DNA from: Prosopocoilus inquinatus
Taxonomy: Eukaryota; Arthropoda; Insecta; Coleoptera; Lucanidae
Length of the DNA stretch: 64,000 nucleotides
Direction of reading: 5' to 3'
NCBI GenBank assembly: GCA_036172665.1
Contig: CM069872.1
Span: 39,790,101-39,854,100, forward strand
A program made the position numbers and the translations under genes. The notes beneath the pieces were generated by a model, which saw nothing but the letters and a program-made list of their open reading frames with translations, did not search any database and was not told the DNA's origin. Below are positions 1-54,039 of the stretch, in pieces. Within the stretch, counting starts at the first letter, position 1. Every line of letters starts with the position of its first letter.

Positions 1-940
1 AAGACCAGAACTGAGATGGAAATCTGATATTGAGGACGATATAAGATATTTGGAAATTAGGAAGATGAAATAACTAGTTATGAATAGCTGGAAAAGTGTA
101 ATTCATAATAAATTATTTATTTGATAATTAAAACCAAAAATTTGTTTAAAATTTTGAGGAGAACATAAATTAACACGAGACAAAATTCTCATCACGTAAA
201 ACTCAATGACTACAATTGAAAAAGCGCTGTATTGTTACGAGTTACGAGTTTTTCGTAAAAAAATAGTAAAAAGAAATTATTAAAACACGAGCTTGTGAAA
301 TTAGGGCAATTTGAACAGTGTCGGATTGTAATAACAATATGTGAAGTAACGCGATATAACAGGGCTCATAACCGCAAAGAATAGAGGGCATGTTACGAAT
401 AACGCAATGCGCGAATAAACTAAAATTGCGTACAAAAGTGCGGGTTAAAATTTGGATGGCAGTCGAGCGCAGCTTAATTCGGTGGGCATTGGTGTCAATT
501 GTAAGAAGGGGAGCCGCCCGGAACCATTCTAGCCACCAAGGACCATGTTCCTTAGATCACCAACATCTTGAGGCCGATTGTAGGACGCTTCCCTGCCACC
601 CGATGTCAATTCCAGCCAGAAGCTGCCAACTTCACCCCCGGTCAACAACAATCCCCGTGAGCCGAACCAGCCTGCTCAGCTGAAGCCACTACCGCACTCC
701 TGTTTGCCCCACCAAGGACACGCCACTTCGTCCAGGACTAAAAGATCGACCGTAGTCATCCGCCAATGATCGCCGATAGCATCGCAGATGAAGCAACGAG
801 CGCGACCTTGACATCGCAGCTACAATCGCAGCTCCCGCACGGACGGCCAAGACCGCAACCACCCTATTTTGGACTACGAGAAACCCCCAGTAATTTAAAC
901 TTAATATTAATAAAAGGTATCAACTTTAGTAAAACATTTG
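1..940. other. Unassigned opening stretch with GC-richer island
   Basis: AT-rich sequence up to about 430, then a distinctly GC-richer, C-rich island at about 470-900 that ends in AATAAA-like sequence near 908. A 97-codon frame at 390-683 has no recognisable domain. The C-rich composition recalls the LTR-like units at 16540-17990, but I could not align them by eye. No gene is called. Confidence 0.3.
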
Positions 941-1296
941 TAAACAGATAAAATAGCGACATCTTACGATCGCTTTTTGACCTGACATTGCAGTAGGATA
1001 GACAAATTGAAGCGGGATTTGCCTTGCATGGGGGACTTATTAGGAGCAAATCCCGCTTCAATTTGTCTATCCTACTGCAATGTCAGGTCAAAAAGCGATC
1101 GTAAGATGTCGCTATTTTATCTGTTCATCACTCTTACATCGCAATTGCGAATAAATTGGACAAGTCGTTTTTGTTTGCAGTGGGAATGTCGAGCTACGTC
1201 TCTGCTGAAGAAGCCCCAAGCAGGGCTGAAACAGCTGTACAGAGGCTGCTAGAGGTTTTCACTGCAATCAAAAACGATTTGCACAAAATTTTTCTT
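941..1296 (+). mobile_element. Hammerhead-ribozyme (retrozyme-like) element, copy 1
   Basis: Flanked by a 10-bp direct repeat AAAACATTTG (931-940 and 1297-1306), taken as target-site duplication. The left half is a perfect palindrome with arms 943-1022 and 1046-1125 (80 bp each) around a 23-bp loop. The right half (1126-1296) is a linker followed by the ribozyme module and ends in GCACAAAATTTTTCTT. The same modules recur at 7719-7884, 22592-22803 and 33993-34499. There are no terminal inverted repeats of transposon type and no poly(A) tail. The variable 10-13 bp duplications across copies suggest insertion through reverse transcription rather than a cut-and-paste transposase. Confidence 0.85.
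1189..1253 (+). ncRNA. Type I hammerhead ribozyme, copy 1
   Basis: Outer helix I TCGAGC/GCTAGA (one mismatch); internal loop TACGT/GCT; inner helix I CTCTG/CAGAG; core CTGAAGA (fits CUGANGA); helix II AGCCC-CAAGCA-GGGCT; GAAA; minimal helix III AC-AGCT-GT; cleavage position H17 = A at 1239, so scission is predicted between 1239 and 1240. GUA is a permitted hammerhead cleavage triplet. Such short helix III hammerheads are known from animal retrozymes and Penelope-like elements, where they work best as dimers. The fold was read by eye and activity is not shown. Confidence 0.85.
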
Positions 1297-1431
1297 AAAA
1301 CATTTGTGTTTAAAGCTTTGCCCTCCGCAAACCTTACGCCACCCATCCACTCACGTGACCTAGTGGAGGCGCTACCCTGTTAGCGCAGCTTACTAAGAGG
1401 ACCACCCCGGAAAGCGTGACAGTACATTATA

Positions 1432-7080: not shown

Positions 7081-7718
7081 CAGGGGTTCCCAATCTTTTT
7101 TAAGCACCGATCTCCTGCAAGAAAATAAAAATTTTCTTCGACCACCTCTCACATTTAATTAATATTTCTGAAATGTTAAATCAAAATTTTGTTAAATTAC
7201 AATCTGCGATTCTATTTAACTTTATTTTATTTTTGTAAAATTGTAAACCTATCCGATCATCTTTTCTCTTTTCTTGGCTCTATTTTATTAGTTTTATTCT
7301 TTTCTATTTTTTCTTTTGTTCAAGCACTCTCTTGATTTGATCTGAATGTAGTATTTTTATTTTCGCCTTATCTTCATCACCCATCGCCTTTTAGTTTTTG
7401 ATATTCATTAGACTTTATTTAATTCAATTTTTAATTTTAATTGACCGACCTTTGCTTCTTTCTCCTTGATTCGATATCATTTGGTTTGTTGTTTGATCCG
7501 TTTATCATCTTTTTTTTCTTTTGTTTAATTTTATTTACCACGTTTTTATTGCATTTTTGAACTATCAATCGTCTTTTGTTCCGGTTTTTCTTTTACTTGA
7601 TTGGATGGAGTTCATTTTATTTTACGTTTTAATTCCGTACACTGATCGTAGTTTTTGTTTTCTTTCGCTGTTATTCGATTTGACATTATTTTGTTTATTT
7701 ATTTATTTATTATTTACT

Positions 7719-7884
7719 TTAGAAAAATTTGCACAAAATTTTTCTAAAATCTTTCATTATGCTTTGACAGCAAGCATGGCCACCTTGCATGGGGGACATA
7801 TTAGGAGCAAATCCCGCTTCAATTTGTCTATCCTACTGCAATGTTAGGTCAAAAAGCGGTAGTAAGATGTCGCTATTTTATATG
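7719..7884 (-). mobile_element. Retrozyme-like element, copy 2 (lacks ribozyme module)
   Basis: Bounded by a 13-bp duplication TTTATTATTTACT (7706-7718 and 7885-7897). It reads in the reverse orientation through the module ending AAAATAGCGAC, the AAGCGGGATTTG module, the loop module and a module ending AATTTTGTGCAAAT. It lacks the hammerhead, but it supplies the junction between the ribozyme module's end (GCACAAAATTTTTCT) and the loop module, so the order of parts in the unit can be reconstructed. Confidence 0.75.
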
Positions 7885-8502
7885 TTTATTATTTACTGTT
7901 CGTCCTTTTTCTTTAATATTTGCAGATTAAAGTTTTCATCGTCTTCGTCACTTTTTATTTTTGTCCTGACCACATCAACGATCGTCTTTTGTTTCCATTC
8001 GAATTGGCTGTATTTTATTTCCATTTTGACAATCAATAGTCTACTTTTATTCGAGTTGACACTGTGCAATGTTTAATTCAAATTCATTTAATATTATTCG
8101 TAAATCTCCTGTTTTTCTGTTAATAAACTATTCAGATAGGCTTGTATTAGACAAGAATTCATGACTAACTCCGATCCCCTAGAGGGTCATCGACCTTAGT
8201 CGACCCCTGTAAGTTCATCGACCCCTTTCAAGTCTCTCATCATCGATCCACAAGGGGTCGATATCGACTCCGCTGGAAACCTCTGATGTGCATTCTTCTT
8301 AATTTATTAATTTTCAATCACTCTTTGGTGTATTCGTAGCTTTTATTATAACATTTGATGTATAATTTTTCTTCTTTGCATTAATCTTTCGTAGATATTG
8401 AGAGTTTTTACCATCTTTTTTCTTTATTTAGACCGATATGAGAGACATGATTCGAATTTCAGTAATAAACTTTAATTTTTCTCTGATAATAGGGGCTATT
8501 CT

Positions 8503-8667
8503 GTATCGAGTACGTTAAATTTAAGCAGATAAAATAGCGACATCTTACTATCGCTTTTTGACCTGACATTCCAGTAGGTCTGTTGCTATGGTAACAACCA
8601 ATCCTGGAGCTTTTTGATTGGTTGTTACCATAGCAACAGTCTGTTAAATTTAATGTACTCGATATAC
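8503..8667. mobile_element. MITE interrupted by ribozyme-element fragment
   Basis: Outer inverted repeats GTATCGAGTACGTTAAATTT / AAATTTAATGTACTCGATAT (about 8503-8523 and 8645-8667). Inside is a strong hairpin of TTGCTATGGTAACAACCAAT and its complement (about 8583-8637). A 54-bp block identical in type to the end module of the ribozyme element (8525-8578) lies between the left outer repeat and the hairpin but not at the mirror position, so it was added later. Confidence 0.65.
8525..8578 (+). mobile_element. Isolated end module of the retrozyme-like family
   Basis: Matches the module that runs from CAGATAAAATAGCGAC to TTGCAGTAGG at 945-998 and 22598-22651, with one clear substitution (CATTCCAG). 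Unlike the other copies there is no clean target duplication; only CAGA is shared with the interrupted MITE, suggesting a microhomology join. Confidence 0.6.
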
Positions 8668-14463: not shown

Positions 14464-15818
14464 TTGAACAACTTTGGCGTAAATGTGGGAAAAAATGAAA
14501 AATTACTGTTTTTTAATAACTCTTTGCTACCTTTATTTGATTTGCATGCTCCCTTCCGGACTATAATTCCCAGAAAACTCAATGCTCCTTGGTTCACGGA
14601 TACACTCCGCGAAATGACCAAATTACGTGATGAAGCCCTAAAACGATTTAAACGAGCGGGCAATCCAAGCCATAAGGAGTATTACAAATCACTTAGAAAC
14701 TTTACAACGTTTGTAAGTATATTTAAAATAGCAATTTAATAATCATAATCCTAAATATCTCTGGAGGTCTCTCAATAAATTAATTCTGAATAAAAGTAAT
14801 GATCCTTTACCCGAATGTTTCGATAATCCTAATGACTTAAATAACTATTTTATTAACTGGGTTCCATCGTCTAACGTTTCTAAAGTTAACGTCATTTTTT
14901 CCTACCTTAGTAAACGTCATTCAAATTTTGTTAACGAATTTAATTTTCACATCGTTTCTCCATCTGTGGTCGAAAAGATAATAAGTAATGTATCAACCAA
15001 TGCTGTAGGTTCCAACGGACTTAGCGTTAAACTTATTTCTGTCTGCTGCCCCTTCATTGTACCTTATGTGACCCATATTGTTAATTTCTGCCTAGAACAC
15101 AATGTCTTTCCTTCGTGTTGGAAGGAGGCGATAGTCATTCCGATTCCCAAAATAATTAAGTCTACCGAGTACAAACACTTACGCCCCATCAGTATTTTGC
15201 CTGCTCTGTCCAAAGTTTTGGAACGAATTGTGAGTGAACAGATAAGATCATTTTTGAGTCATTACAATATTTTGCCTGCTCATAAGTATGGCTTTAGACC
15301 TGGTCACAGTTGTTGCTCTGCACTTCTAGGTGTCACCGATGATGTTATTAACTCAATGGACAAGAAATTTTCTTGTTTAATGGTGTCCATTGATTACTCC
15401 AAAGCCTTCGACTCTTTAGACCGTGATATTTTGTTGTCGATCCTGTATCACGTAGGTATGAGCAGTGATGTCATTAACTTTTTTTCTAATTACCTCCAAG
15501 ATAGGAAACAGGCAGTAAAAATCAGAGATCAAGTCTCAGAATTTATTTCTATTAAGTGTGGCGTTCCGCAAGGTAGTATTTGCGGTCCCTTATTGTACAT
15601 TTTATATACGTCTTGCTTTAATACAATTACTCCTTATTCTAAGTTGTATTCTTACGCGGATGACACCCGGATCCTCTTCGTTTCCGGATAACACCAATGT
15701 AGATATAATTAATTGTGTTAATCGTGAATTAGAGCGTATTCGATTATTATTTGAAAATCATAATCTTAACACAAATCCTTCAAAGTCTTCTGTATTAGTA
15801 TTCGGTTCGCTTTTTTAG
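14464..15818 (+). pseudogene. Non-LTR retrotransposon ORF2 (reverse transcriptase), CR1/Jockey-like relic
   Basis: Three disrupted frames give one ORF2. 14464-14739 is the endonuclease-RT linker (NAPWFTDTLREMTKLRDEAL). 14966-15691 is the reverse transcriptase palm: LRPISILPALSKVLERIV, YGFRPGHSCCSALLGVTDD, motif A VSIDYSKAFDSLD (about 15385-15422), GVPQGSICGPLLY and the catalytic YADD (about 15652). A frameshift near 15690 leads to the thumb start (CVNRELERIRLLFENHNLNT) at 15695-15818. The endonuclease and the 3' part are missing. Motif A and YADD are intact, so decay is moderate. The clade is assigned from motif style only. Confidence 0.85.
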
Positions 15819-22110: not shown

Positions 22111-22591
22111 ACTGTCACTTAGTGTATCTACATGAATCTATTTTTATGTTTTTTTTTTCAAAATCTTTTAGTGGAAATCAAAGCAAGTGTTCAAAAAAGT
22201 TGCTGCAGGAATTCAGGAAAATTTTTATAGATTTTGAAAATAGTTTCAGCTCGATTTTCGAAAGTTGCGATATTCTCCAATTCCGAACAAGCTGTTCGAG
22301 ATATTTCAAATTTCTTAACACATTATTAATTAGCATGGAATTTGGCAACTTTGCCGCCATTTAACCGATTTTCTAAATCTTTTAATAAGCTGGATCTTCA
22401 CGCTGCCCTTGAATTTCGATCACCCTGTACAGAGCACATCATCGTTAGTTTATTTAATTGTTATAGGTATATTTGTTTGTATTTTATGAGTATTATTAAC
22501 GTAATAATTTCCGCATAAAGAAATATTTTTGTTTTCTGTAATAGGTTGACATAAAACGAATATTTTTTTTTTAGTTAATTAAAAAAAGAGC

Positions 22592-22803
22592 GATGAACAG
22601 ATAAAATAGCGACATCTTACTATCGCTTTTTGACCTGACATTGCAGTAGGAATTCGAATAAATTGGACAAGTCGTTTCTGTTTGCAGTGGGAATGTCGAG
22701 CTACGTCTCTGCTGAAGAAGCCTCAAGCAGGGCTCAAACAGCTGTACAGAGGTTGTTCGAAGTTTTCACTGCAATCAAAAACGATTTGCACAAAATTTTT
22801 TTG
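22592..22803 (+). mobile_element. Hammerhead-ribozyme element, copy 3
   Basis: Bounded by the 11-bp duplication AAAAAAAGAGC (22581-22591 and 22804-22814). It consists of an inverted end module starting GATGAACAGATAAAATAGCG joined at 22652 straight to AATTCGAATAAATTGGACAAG and the ribozyme module. Compared with copy 1 it lacks the palindrome and most of the linker. The first bases GATGAACAG are the complement of the CTGTTCATC seen between end module and linker in copies 1 and 4, confirming that those parts are contiguous in the parent unit. Confidence 0.8.
22696..22761 (+). ncRNA. Hammerhead ribozyme, copy 3 (core mutated)
   Basis: Helix I CTCTG/CAGAG, core CTGAAGA and helix II AGCCT-CAAGCA-GGGCT (one T-G wobble) are kept. 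The invariant G12 of GAAA is C (CAAA at 22735-22738), which should abolish cleavage. The triplet is GTA. The pairing changes in helices I and II are wobble-compatible, so decay appears recent. Confidence 0.75.
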
Positions 22804-22814
22804 AAAAAAAGAGC

Positions 22815-23740
22815 AAATACAATTTCAATATATTTAATAGAGGAGTAAAGTAGGAGAAGAAAAATAATATTTTGATATTAAATTCGAATGGTTAAAATTC
22901 CCGACTTATTAAAACTGAGAATGAAATTTACTTCGGCCATTAAAAAAAAATATTTCTAAATTTACGGAATTAAAGAATCACGAAAACAGAACAATTTCAT
23001 AACATGTGTCCCAAAGTTATGCAATCTCGATCTAGCTTATAACTGGTAACCTGTAGCTTGAATATTAATATTAATCATTTGAATACATAAATAAGGAATA
23101 TTGAAAGTAAACCAGTTAAATATTGACGTACGGATTAGCACTCATAGATACTTTTGAGATACATTTTAGTTTAAAAATTAAATCTTAAAGCAGTAAACAA
23201 TAATTGGTGTTCACGCCAAATTATAGCAAAACTGGACAGAAGTTTATCACATTTGGAAGAAATTTTTATGTCAGTTTTTTTAATTTTATTTTATTTTTAT
23301 TTTAAATGCAACTTCCAATTTGACCACAATTTTTTGGAACACCTTATAGATATTTTAATTTATATGGTATAAGGTGTTCCAAGAGTGGTGGTCAAATTGG
23401 AAGTTGCACGTAAAATAAAAATAAAATAAAATAAAAAAAACTGACAAAAGTGCTTTGCAAAATGTTATTAACATAATTCTTCTTCAAAATATTCAAGTGT
23501 GTGTTGCTCACAGTGGAGTTCCGACATTATTTGATATTCTTTTTATTTCTCTGCTCCACATGAATTTTGAGATTTGCTACGTTATTTCATATTCTTTTCG
23601 TTAGTTTTCATTACATGCGTATAATTTAGAACAAAAGCTGTAGATTTTGAAGGCGCTTTTTTGATATATTTGATTAGTTCTTTTGACACCGCACCATTTA
23701 ACTTAAAAGGAAGTTTGAGAGGGATGTAAGGGTGTGCGTG
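22815..23740. other. No gene recognised outside the MITE at 23269
   Basis: Very AT-rich, with frequent stops in every frame. Apart from the hairpin MITE listed separately I see nothing to annotate. Confidence 0.4.
23269..23446. mobile_element. Hairpin MITE, 178 bp
   Basis: Inverted arms of about 75 bp running from TGTCAGTTTTTTT through CAACTTCCAATTTGACCAC to GGAACACCTTA, mirrored by TAAGGTGTTCC...GTGGTCAAATTGGAAGTTG...AAAAAAACTGACA. The loop is about 30 bp. Near-perfect pairing suggests a recent insertion or a dsRNA-forming locus. Confidence 0.8.
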
Positions 23741-33700: not shown

Positions 33701-34170
33701 ATACAGGCTGATTCAAAATAAGTGTACGACCCGTCAACTACAGGTAGTACACAGCAAAAGAAAACAGAAAGTCTATATGCATATGGGGTCTAGCATCCAT
33801 AGTTTTTGAAAAACGCATTGACGATTCAGATTTAAATTGGTTAATGGGCACCAATGCAGCTGCATTGCGTCACAAGAGCAATGAACTCGCTTGAAATACA
33901 ACAAAACGCTGGCGTTTAGCTTGAAATGAAATTGTAAAACGTTTTTATTTATGGCTTCTTTCGGAAAAAAATGTATAATACGCAATTTTTTTCAGATAAA
34001 ATAGCGACTTACTATCGCTTTTTGACCTGACATTGCAGTAGGATAGACAAATTAAAGCGGGATTTGCTCCTAATAAGTCCCCCATGCAAGGCGGCCAAGC
34101 TTGCTGCCAAAGCATAATGAAAATTTTTAGAAAAATTTTGTGCAAATCGTTCTTGATTGCAGCGAAAACC

Positions 34171-34228
34171 TCGAGCAGCCTCTGGACAGCTGTTTCAGCC
34201 CTGCTTCTTCAGCAGAGACGTAGCTCGA
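34171..34228 (-). ncRNA. Hammerhead ribozyme, minus-strand member of copy 4
   Basis: Helix I TCGAGC/GCTCGA and CTCTG/CAGAG, core CTGAAGA, GAAA, ACAGCTGTC all intact. A 9-nt deletion shortens helix II to AGC-AGG-GCT. The triplet is GUC; cleavage is predicted between complement positions 34185 and 34184. Activity may be reduced by the short helix II. Confidence 0.8.
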
Positions 34229-34391
34229 CATTTCCACTGCAAACAAAAACGACTTGTGCAATTTATTCGCAATTGCGATGTAAGAGTCAACTAAAAAGCG
34301 ATAGTAAGATGTCGCTATTTTATCTGTTCATCACTCTTACATCGCAATTGCGAATAAATTGGACAAGTCGTTTTTGTTTGCAGTGGAAATG

Positions 34392-34456
34392 TCGAGCTAC
34401 GTCTCTGCTGAAGAAGCCCCAAGCAGGGCTGAAACAGCTGTCCAGAGGCTGCTCGA
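34392..34456 (+). ncRNA. Type I hammerhead ribozyme, intact copy
   Basis: Outer helix I TCGAGC (34392-34397) pairs perfectly with GCTCGA (34451-34456). Internal loop TACGT/GCT. Inner helix I CTCTG (34403-34407) with CAGAG (34443-34447). Core CTGAAGA (34408-34414). Helix II AGCCC (34415-34419), loop CAAGCA, GGGCT (34426-34430). GAAA (34431-34434). Helix III is AC/GT closed by AGCT. The cleavage triplet is GTC, with scission after C34442. All invariant hammerhead positions match, and the helix I internal loop opposite loop II is the layout used for tertiary contact in natural hammerheads. Confidence 0.9.
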
Positions 34457-34689
34457 GGTTTTCGCTGCAAGCACGAACCATTTGCACAAAATTTTTCTAG
34501 CAATTTTTTTCATTCAATTTTCATATTTGGTATGTATACGTAAGAAAATAATTTCCATTTTGGATTCAAAAGAGGTTGATTTCTGAAATGCCTCGACAAA
34601 ATTATTTCTTGCAATTTCACACATGACAGTGAATACACTCCTAAAGGGTCGGACACTTATTCTGAATCACCCTGTATATCTGAATAACT

Positions 34690-37529: not shown

Positions 37530-38165
37530 TAACATGAGCCCTTGGAAGCCAAAGATGAACAAAATATATAGGTATCTTAACTAAAAATACAGCAGTTATA
37601 TACAAATAAAATATAAAAAATCCCACATCCTCAAAAAAGAAAAAAAATCCAAAGTTCCATTTAAGCCACAATAATAAAAAATAGAAACCATTATAGGCAA
37701 CGAAGCTACCAAAATATAAAACAAAAGACACACACCCGCCTGAATACGTTCAGGTTGATACCCCCATCCAATAATCAACACCAACGTAGGAATTAAACTA
37801 AACTCAAAAAACAAGTAAAATACAAACAAATTTATAGAAGCAAAAGTACAAAATAAAGAAATCAATAAAATAAGTAAAGTAAACAAAAAAAGATCAATAA
37901 AATAATTCCTCCTATTAATTCTCGAACTTGCCATAATCGTTAAAGAACAAATTCAAAGCCTCAATAAAATTATTACATAAGAAAGCAAATCCACCCCAAA
38001 AAGTAACTGACATTAACATATCCTCAACCCAAGCCAATCTCCCTCAAAAAAAAAATTATACACATATAAACACACTGATTAAATCAAAATCCCCCCTTAA
38101 TAAAACTTAATGGAACAGAAAAAAATATTAAAAGTAAAAATTTTCTCATAACAAATTAAAAGACT
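37530..38165 (-). pseudogene. nad4: Nuclear mitochondrial insert: ND4 5' part
   Basis: Minus-strand frames give insect ND4: FFEFSLIPTLVLIIGWGYQP then ERIQAGVCLLFY, LNGTLDFF and, in a shifted frame, YLYITAVFLVKIPIYFVHLW LPRAHV. Similarity stops after RAHV near 37535, the insertion border. The N-terminal part up to the start (MRKFLLL... with the mitochondrial code, AGA=Ser) overlaps the ND4L end at about 38156-38162, as in insect mtDNA. Frameshifts show it is not functional in the nucleus. Confidence 0.9.
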
Positions 38166-53250: not shown

Positions 53251-54039
53251 TCCGACGGGACTGAACCGGGCGGTTCTCTTTTTTTTATTGTGGTTCGGGG
53301 AAATCTTCAAAAGACGCCCTCGGTCGGATCTCCACCGAGGTGTGCTGGATTCGCCTGGGAAGATAACCCAGACACCTACCAGCCAAACCCATTTTCCTCA
53401 TTTGCTTCTACGTTTCACTTAGTAACCACATAATGTAAAACATTTCAGTGGAGCCCTGTCCTTACAGTTTTTACTTTCATTAATTTTCATTCCGGGGCTT
53501 TCATTTCCTGCGTAATCTTTATTTCTCTGTAGAGCTAATTGATTTCTCCTTTGTTACAGGCTTTCTGTAACTTGTAACTTATTTTCGGCCTCTTTCTATC
53601 CTTCGCATTTCTCTTTTCTTTTTTGGGTCGAGAGAATTGGACTTCCTGTTTGTGACTTCATTTCGGTCTTCAACCATGTAACTTTTATTTTCTTTCGTGG
53701 ACTATTGTCTGTTTGCGTATTTTTTACTTCTCTGACTTTGTCTTTTCTTCTCTTTTCTTTTTGGGGGGAGAAGGAGGGATCCCGGTTTTCCGGGATATAA
53801 CTTGAGGCCTTTCTTTTGTGATCTTTATAGACTTGCTCGTGTCTTCTTCTTCTATAGAGAGAAGCCTCGTTGTTCCAAGGGCTTATCTATATCTAGTTTA
53901 TTTTCATCTTCGCTCTTCTTTGATCCAAACATGACTTTCCTTCTCCAGCTGTCTCGAATATAATTATATTAAATATTTCTTTAGTTTCTAATATTTTTTT
54001 AGTTTCTAGCCTCCTCTTCTCTTTCATCTTTTTCTTTGG
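53251..54039 (-). repeat. 3' non-coding part of an R1-like element
   Basis: On the minus strand GTGTCTGGGTTATCTTCCCA and CACCTCGGTGGAGATCCGAC CGAGG resemble 3' regions of R1-like elements. The sequence is strongly purine-rich on the minus strand through 53450-54040, matching the strand bias of the adjoining ORF2. Confidence 0.45.

Follow-up and report, generated by a model that had tools for sequence, protein, structure and literature searches.

A 311-nt, A/T-rich, non-coding unit carrying a hammerhead ribozyme motif is dispersed through the 650-Mb assembly, and most of the duplication-flanked insertions examined are antisense/sense structures whose outer ends lie at two different fixed sites inside the unit. 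We consider it likely that the element belongs to the non-autonomous, non-LTR retrozymes of animals and that machinery of the type used by Penelope-like elements (PLEs) inserted it. PLE-type insertion is supported by the unlike ends of 36/40 retrozyme insertions, by the unlike ends of 12/12 loci of a PLE family (P1) in the same genome and by similar duplication lengths. No description of two-site inverted retrozyme insertions was found in the literature searched; we regard the pattern as a variant of retrozyme insertion. The machinery that moves animal retrozymes is left open in the literature examined, with PLEs named as a strong candidate (PMC7229834), and short insertions with fixed, unlike ends provide a genomic test of the PLE role in this movement. 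At 311 nt, the unit would also make a minimal test RNA for a purified PLE protein. Should unlike ends prove to be the rule, they would limit the ways in which PLEs can complete insertion, a step described as yet to be validated (PMC11167929).

The window (the whole stretch of 64,000 nucleotides that was analysed) contains four copies that entered our counts, A to D, and a copy E that was excluded from them. The unit was numbered m1 to m311 starting at the ribozyme cut site; the fixed sites are X, near m197, and Y, near m57. Locus L016, the reference for the arms below, has five hammerheads head-to-tail, spaced 312, 310, 311 and 312 bases.

33982..33994, no strand: copy A, target-site duplication on the left (GCAATTTTTTTCA), 13 bp, identical to 34500-34512
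33993..34287, minus strand: antisense arm of copy A, from X (m195) through the whole unit to m202, 93% identical to an L016 unit
34185..34212, minus strand: copy A, core of the antisense-arm hammerhead, helix II shortened to AGC/GCT (pairing by eye)
34293..34499, plus strand: sense arm of copy A, from m162 round to Y (m57), 97% identical to an L016 unit
34392..34456, plus strand: type I hammerhead of copy A, core 34408-34442, predicted cut after 34442 (direct reading and strict pattern)
34500..34512, no strand: right target-site duplication of copy A, partner of 33982-33994
930..1307, plus strand: copy B, flanked by duplications at 930-941 and 1296-1307; its antisense part (943-1022) runs from X and its sense part (1021-1299) to Y
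22581..22814, plus strand: copy C, flanked by duplications at 22581-22591 and at 22804-22814; its antisense part runs from X and its sense part to Y
7706..7897, plus strand: copy D, duplications 7706-7718 and 7885-7897, without ribozyme, sense end at X
8514..8653, minus strand: copy E, with GTTAAATTTAA occurring at 8514-8524 and again at 8643-8653

Judged from its sequence, copy A is an inverted insertion in which an antisense stretch is joined to a sense stretch inside a 13-bp duplication. The 13-bp repeat occurs in the window at these two positions only, and the two arms are 93% identical over 167 columns. The preliminary description, which had treated copy A as a retrozyme-like element, was right about the unit; it had overlooked the antisense arm (33993-34287), the two fixed ends and the antisense/sense joint. 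What it described is one of the two arms of an inverted insertion, and copy A as a whole carries a single sense ribozyme. In the predicted fold of the 505-nt copy A RNA, 58/65 ribozyme bases pair with the antisense arm. Since its only sense ribozyme is predicted to be buried in this way, copy A should not release a unit or make a circle. Copies B and C have one motif each, and D and E have none. The copy B motif is a strict hammerhead at 1205 with A at H17; the core of copy C is broken (GAAA to CAAA). The second end of copy D is a short Y stub by eye and a 5'-type end as called by the script. The duplications of copies A to D measure 13, 12, 11 and 13 bp, in agreement with the 10-13 bp described earlier. 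Tandem arrays are present in L016 and in no single insertion of the window, which holds insertion products, not source copies.

At copy E, an X module (8526-8578) is fused to an unrelated hairpin (8580-8639). The segment 8508-8664 thus comprises, enclosed by copies of GTTAAATTTAA, the X module and an unrelated hairpin with a perfect stem of 24 bp (TTGCTATGGTAACAACC...), and the same target-like repeat recurs around the flanks of locus L026, as if a second small element sharing the GTTAAATTTAA target were mixed in at copy E and L026.

The motif at 34392-34456 had been described as a complete type I hammerhead with all invariant bases, a 5-bp helix II and a two-pair helix III. Direct reading confirmed the core, with CTGAAGA at 34408-34414, GAAA at 34431-34434, CAGCTG at 34435-34440, T34441 and C34442. 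Helix II is AGCCC/GGGCT enclosing CAAGCA, the CAGAG 3' of C34442 pairs with an upstream CTCTG, and helix III is CAGCUG, two pairs with a two-base loop. The strict pattern (core with 5/5 helix I, 4/4 helix II and 2/2 helix III pairs) matched at two places in the window (1205 and 34408), compared to 0 matches in 30 Markov-1 shuffles. The loose, core-only pattern gave 14 matches against 5.6 ± 3.3 expected, and 3/100 shuffles reached 14; on its own it is nearer chance than the strict pattern. A hammerhead pattern had 0 matches in each of viral_contigs and genome_contigs.

The hammerhead RNA is more stable than shuffled sequence (z = -3.33; 0/200 shuffles equally stable), and the predicted minimum-energy fold of a single motif is a CUGC-CAGC pairing and not a hammerhead. 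Two motifs together are predicted to fold as a double hammerhead in which helices I and III form between the strands, at -64.1 compared to 2 x -30.1 kcal/mol for the singles. The preliminary description had proposed an Rfam covariance search and had named the lack of a hit as one of three refuting outcomes. This one did occur: Rfam gave no hammerhead in the 64-kb window at gathering score or at E up to 5, and none in L016, L068 or L071 at E up to 10. The short helix III, no more than CAGCUG, is the probable reason. Because of the two-pair helix III, the other minimum-energy fold and the missing Rfam match, the 34408 motif is predicted to be a poor stand-alone hammerhead. It is predicted to form as a dimer. 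Minimal PLE hammerheads may cut as dimers (PMC7761336), and the same is said of vertebrate retrozyme hammerheads in the abstract of PMC7229834.

To define the family, loci were collected by similarity, and the counts below are therefore not genome frequencies. A 161-base query spanning the cut site gave 45 matches among the 40 scored of 1645 first-look candidates. The 43 matches outside the window merged into 38 places, to which we added L048, taken from the GIY-YIG search described below, and 12 loci from 43 matches of a second search; these 12 form a second set, picked by a query that does not lie over the cut site. At least two strict same-strand hammerheads occurred in 8/48 loci. The unit of about 310 nt without a protein gene that had been proposed was recovered: L016 units measure 310-312 nt, and long open frames in the window copies are not above chance frames. 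The circular fold of one L016 unit reached -105.5, compared to -70.5 ± 4.7 for shuffles (0/100 as low). From the hammerhead, unit, tandem copies and duplications we assign the element to the metazoan non-LTR retrozymes, with circularity predicted. The 311-nt unit has no reverse transcriptase and GIY-YIG open reading frame of its own and is therefore not a PLE, only PLE-like in insertion. Some insertions were seen twice, L017/L019 and L021/L030 on contigs C15 and C6 of G000 and L033/L043 on C5; these reflect either duplicate assembly or segmental duplication.

Alignment of 55 sources (38 loci, L048, the 12 second-set loci and 4 window copies) to the unit yielded 60 clusters 100 nt or more in length, and 56 once duplicate rows were removed (L019, L030 with two rows, and L043, judged by eye from repeats and spans to duplicate L017, L021 and L033). 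A target-site duplication of 10-18 bp flanked 40/56 clusters, and LTRs were absent. Microhomology included, the duplications were 12 bp in 15 clusters, 13 bp in 12, 14 bp in 7 and another length within 10-18 bp in 6. Among the 40 duplication-flanked insertions, 36 had one end at X and the other at Y, both of RNA-3' type, with the antisense stretch first, starting from X or Y, and the sense stretch last, ending at the opposite site. Independent choice of ends would predict unlike ends in about half, and YY ends were seen in 0/40. The four exceptions were L016 and copy D, in which the second site is a stub by eye, L039, with ends at X and at X plus an A/T stub, and the complex L026. No poly(A) tail was seen at the X and Y ends. 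The 16 clusters without duplication included ten with one fixed end and two cut by the end of the locus; L021 was XY with a weak 9-bp repeat, L042 was XX, and two (the first cluster of L023, and L040) ended at neither site. By eye, the first cluster of L011 reads as XX too.

Leaving out L026, 42 antisense/sense joints lay at varied positions that differed from insertion to insertion. The insertions therefore do not descend from one inverted ancestor; each made its own joint. Microhomology at the joints was weak (p = 0.079). The arms were offset by 5-150 nt, and 3/42 joints had an offset within 7 nt (about 2 expected).

PLEs of the same genome were examined for comparison. A GIY-YIG search revealed an abundant family, P1 (150 scored of 2232 candidates), with a 788-aa open reading frame containing a reverse transcriptase at 322-514 (RVT_1, 2e-14) and a GIY-YIG domain at 688-770 (9.5e-7). 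The PLE relatives bear insect names, such as Tribolium castaneum, and together with an ND4 fragment of the window in invertebrate code they point to an arthropod. A minimal hammerhead lies upstream of the P1 ends. Among the matches listed, GIY-YIG neighbours within 12 kb were oriented minus-plus in 47 cases, minus-minus in 1 and plus-minus in 0. One outer end of P1 lay at site 1 and the other at site 2, about 38 nt further on, in 12/12 loci; as 11/12 had been picked as close minus-plus pairs, the inversion was selected and the unlike ends were not. The stretch of about 38 nt between the sites matches the PLE 'tail'. P1 duplications measured 11-16 bp (median 12.5, microhomology included), and P1 arms met at one coordinate within 7 nt in 4/12 loci. 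Near-equal P1 arms may be read as run-off at a shared 5' end, and the spread of retrozyme offsets as a sign that the retrozyme template had no such end. A second family, P2, showed unlike ends by eye in 3/4 readable pairs; L099/L100 were both short, and L101/L102 and L103/L104 fell outside the readable pairs. P2 (L093-L104) adjoins (TA)n tracts, which it seems to target.

Near the start sites, TCGAGG..TTT..CACT is common to P1 and the retrozyme. Around these sites, however, the retrozyme showed no significant similarity to either P1 or P2 (325/2000, 1765/2000, 91/500 and 1046/2000 shuffles as good), and the sequence therefore points to no particular helper PLE. A GIY-YIG match beside the L048 retrozyme was considered as a carrier PLE and rejected; its 84-aa frame reads like a host gene of the SLX1 type. 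The L048 retrozyme itself is an ordinary XY insertion.

The insertions also bear on the nature of the template. If self-cut linear monomers were copied, arms should stop at the cut site. Without L026, 2/84 arm ends fell within 6 nt of it (3.5 expected), and in the second set 0/20 did (0.8 expected), all 12/12 loci reading across the cut. Because units read across the cut site and mostly share variants, the template appears to be circular or uncut. At nine diagnostic sites (L016, L026 and three duplicates left out), 41/409 within-insertion comparisons were discordant, compared to 105.8 ± 7.7 after permutation (0/1000 as low), and 34/46 informative insertions were fully concordant. Over all bases, unit copies differed by 3.7% within and 4.6% between loci, with the lower value within in 30/43 loci. 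Variants shared with other insertions differed at 94/9659 sites between head-to-tail and at 61/9318 sites between inverted unit copies of one insertion, against 3910/269811 between insertions. The concordance together with the remaining differences therefore suggests that an insertion usually, though not always, stems from a single RNA. The head-to-tail array of L016 (227-1921) has a three-unit repeat: units three apart differ by 0.8% and others by 2-3%, the 0.8% coming from units 1/4 (1/311) and 2/5 (1/196), and unit 0 fits unit 2 (3/254) as well as unit 3 (4/254). The unit types are one with a helix II mismatch, one with a helix III mismatch and one intact strict hammerhead. This pattern would fit a three-unit ring left by failed cuts; later DNA duplication fits too.

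In the course of events that we propose, tandem units would be transcribed, paired hammerheads would cut the multimer and ligation would give rings. Circles have been shown for metazoan retrozymes (PMC7229834), whereas here we infer them, along with self-cleavage and the PLE-type enzyme. That enzyme would make a staggered cut at an A/T-rich site, at which the duplications seen are most often 12-13 bp. The target strands would then prime reverse transcription within the RNA, one at X (about m197) and the other at Y (about m57); the two fixed ends of RNA-3' type are observed, and priming at both together on one RNA is what they suggest. Finally, the two antisense cDNAs would be joined head to head at variable points, and the antisense/sense insertions do hold up to several units; copy A would be one product of such two-site priming. 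Purified anole PLE initiates reverse transcription at a pair of neighbouring internal positions, and each of the target strands is extended (PMC11167929). Several observations weigh against the PLE-type reading: the retrozyme shows no significant likeness to P1 or P2, 16 clusters lack a duplication and mostly do not show both fixed ends, unit copies differ nearly as much within as between loci over all bases, microhomology at the joints is weak, X and Y are about 140 nt apart compared to about 38 nt for PLE sites, and the anole enzyme in vitro used start sites that were alike on both strands (PMC11167929). More tentatively, and with rather less conviction than the PLE-type reading itself, we suggest a two-headed PLE particle in which the cut strands are obligatorily primed at different fixed sites of one circular RNA and the cDNAs are joined head to head. 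If this were true, PLE-type insertion would always produce unlike ends, and the retrozyme would be one of the smallest natural substrates for it.

Rather than a 311-nt ring, the template might be a long multimer transcribed from genomic arrays and left uncut, with the hammerhead minor in insertion, a possibility that we take seriously without favouring it. The shared variants that differ between unit copies of one insertion and the three unit types of L016 would fit such a transcript, and hammerhead mutants left PLE insertion in vitro unaffected (PMC11167929). The ribozyme core is moreover conserved no more than the rest: in the second set 12/326 core cells differ, compared to 29/1332 other hammerhead cells. 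Within insertions, however, diagnostic variants agree far beyond permutation, and multi-unit sources are few in the sample (the 8/48 loci above). The same lack of excess conservation would suit a dead relic, an element that moves while its ribozyme no longer matters, as would the lack of an Rfam match and the broken core in 9/67 full motifs found by BLAST. The other 58/67 motifs keep the core, all having been chosen by similarity over the motif, and two copies are predicted to fold as a double hammerhead; we regard the relic as unlikely.

Other routes to an inverted structure fare worse. L1 twin priming, in which both target strands prime on one RNA, yields antisense/sense structures with an inverted joint and duplications, as seen here, and a LINE-like reverse transcriptase is present in the window. 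In almost every flanked retrozyme copy, however, the two ends lie at fixed internal sites and are nearly always unlike. Poly(A) tails were not observed there, and P1 has the two-site pattern in common, which makes insertion by a LINE helper with L1-like inversions very improbable. A single target-primed cDNA that snapped back and copied itself would also produce head-to-head repeats, and the P1 arms that meet within 7 nt in 4/12 loci agree with this; self-priming has been discussed for rotifer Penelope (PMC3846280). Snap-back would need like ends and one arm-meeting coordinate, but retrozyme ends are unlike in 36/40 insertions, their offsets are spread with hardly more joints within 7 nt than expected, and P1 ends are unlike too. 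Snap-back is thus already largely refuted for the retrozyme and stands as the least probable of these explanations.

Similar to the metazoan non-LTR retrozymes of Cervera and de la Pena (2020, PMC7229834), the element has a type I hammerhead, a non-coding tandem unit of about 300 nt with low G+C and no LTRs, duplications longer than 4 bp and many dispersed copies, with PLEs in the same genome. Units of metazoan non-LTR retrozymes span about 170-400 nt and occur as dimers to multimers. The dispersed, animal-retrozyme-like character described earlier is consistent with this, given the head-to-tail arrays (L016) and dispersed, duplication-flanked copies. Most insertions here are antisense/sense with two fixed ends, whereas the word 'inverted' is absent from the main text of PMC7229834. 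PLEs with hammerheads in their pLTRs share with the retrozyme head-to-head copies, a tailed and an untailed end, A/T-rich targets, a minimal hammerhead that precedes the start sites and internal cDNA starts (PMC11167929, PMC3846280); the retrozyme differs in being non-coding and 311 nt long and in the wider spacing of its sites. Plant LTR retrozymes are likewise small non-coding hammerhead elements thought to move via circular RNA. They differ in having type III hammerheads, LTRs, a length of 600-800 nt and 4-bp duplications (PMC7229834).

The window contains several further features. The LINE-like reverse transcriptase frame mentioned above lies at 14732-15691 on the plus strand (RVT_1, 1.5e-22). 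A 69-nt inverted repeat at 23266-23449 is 90% complementary and MITE-like, with sub-threshold matches to miRNA families. On the minus strand, 53299-53390 resembles the R2 RNA element below threshold (32.4 bits; cut-off 38), and 37596-37952 reads as a fragment of mitochondrial ND4 in code 5 (Proton_antipo_M, 3.4e-14), in a stretch of strong GC skew, which we read as a probable nuclear copy of mitochondrial DNA.
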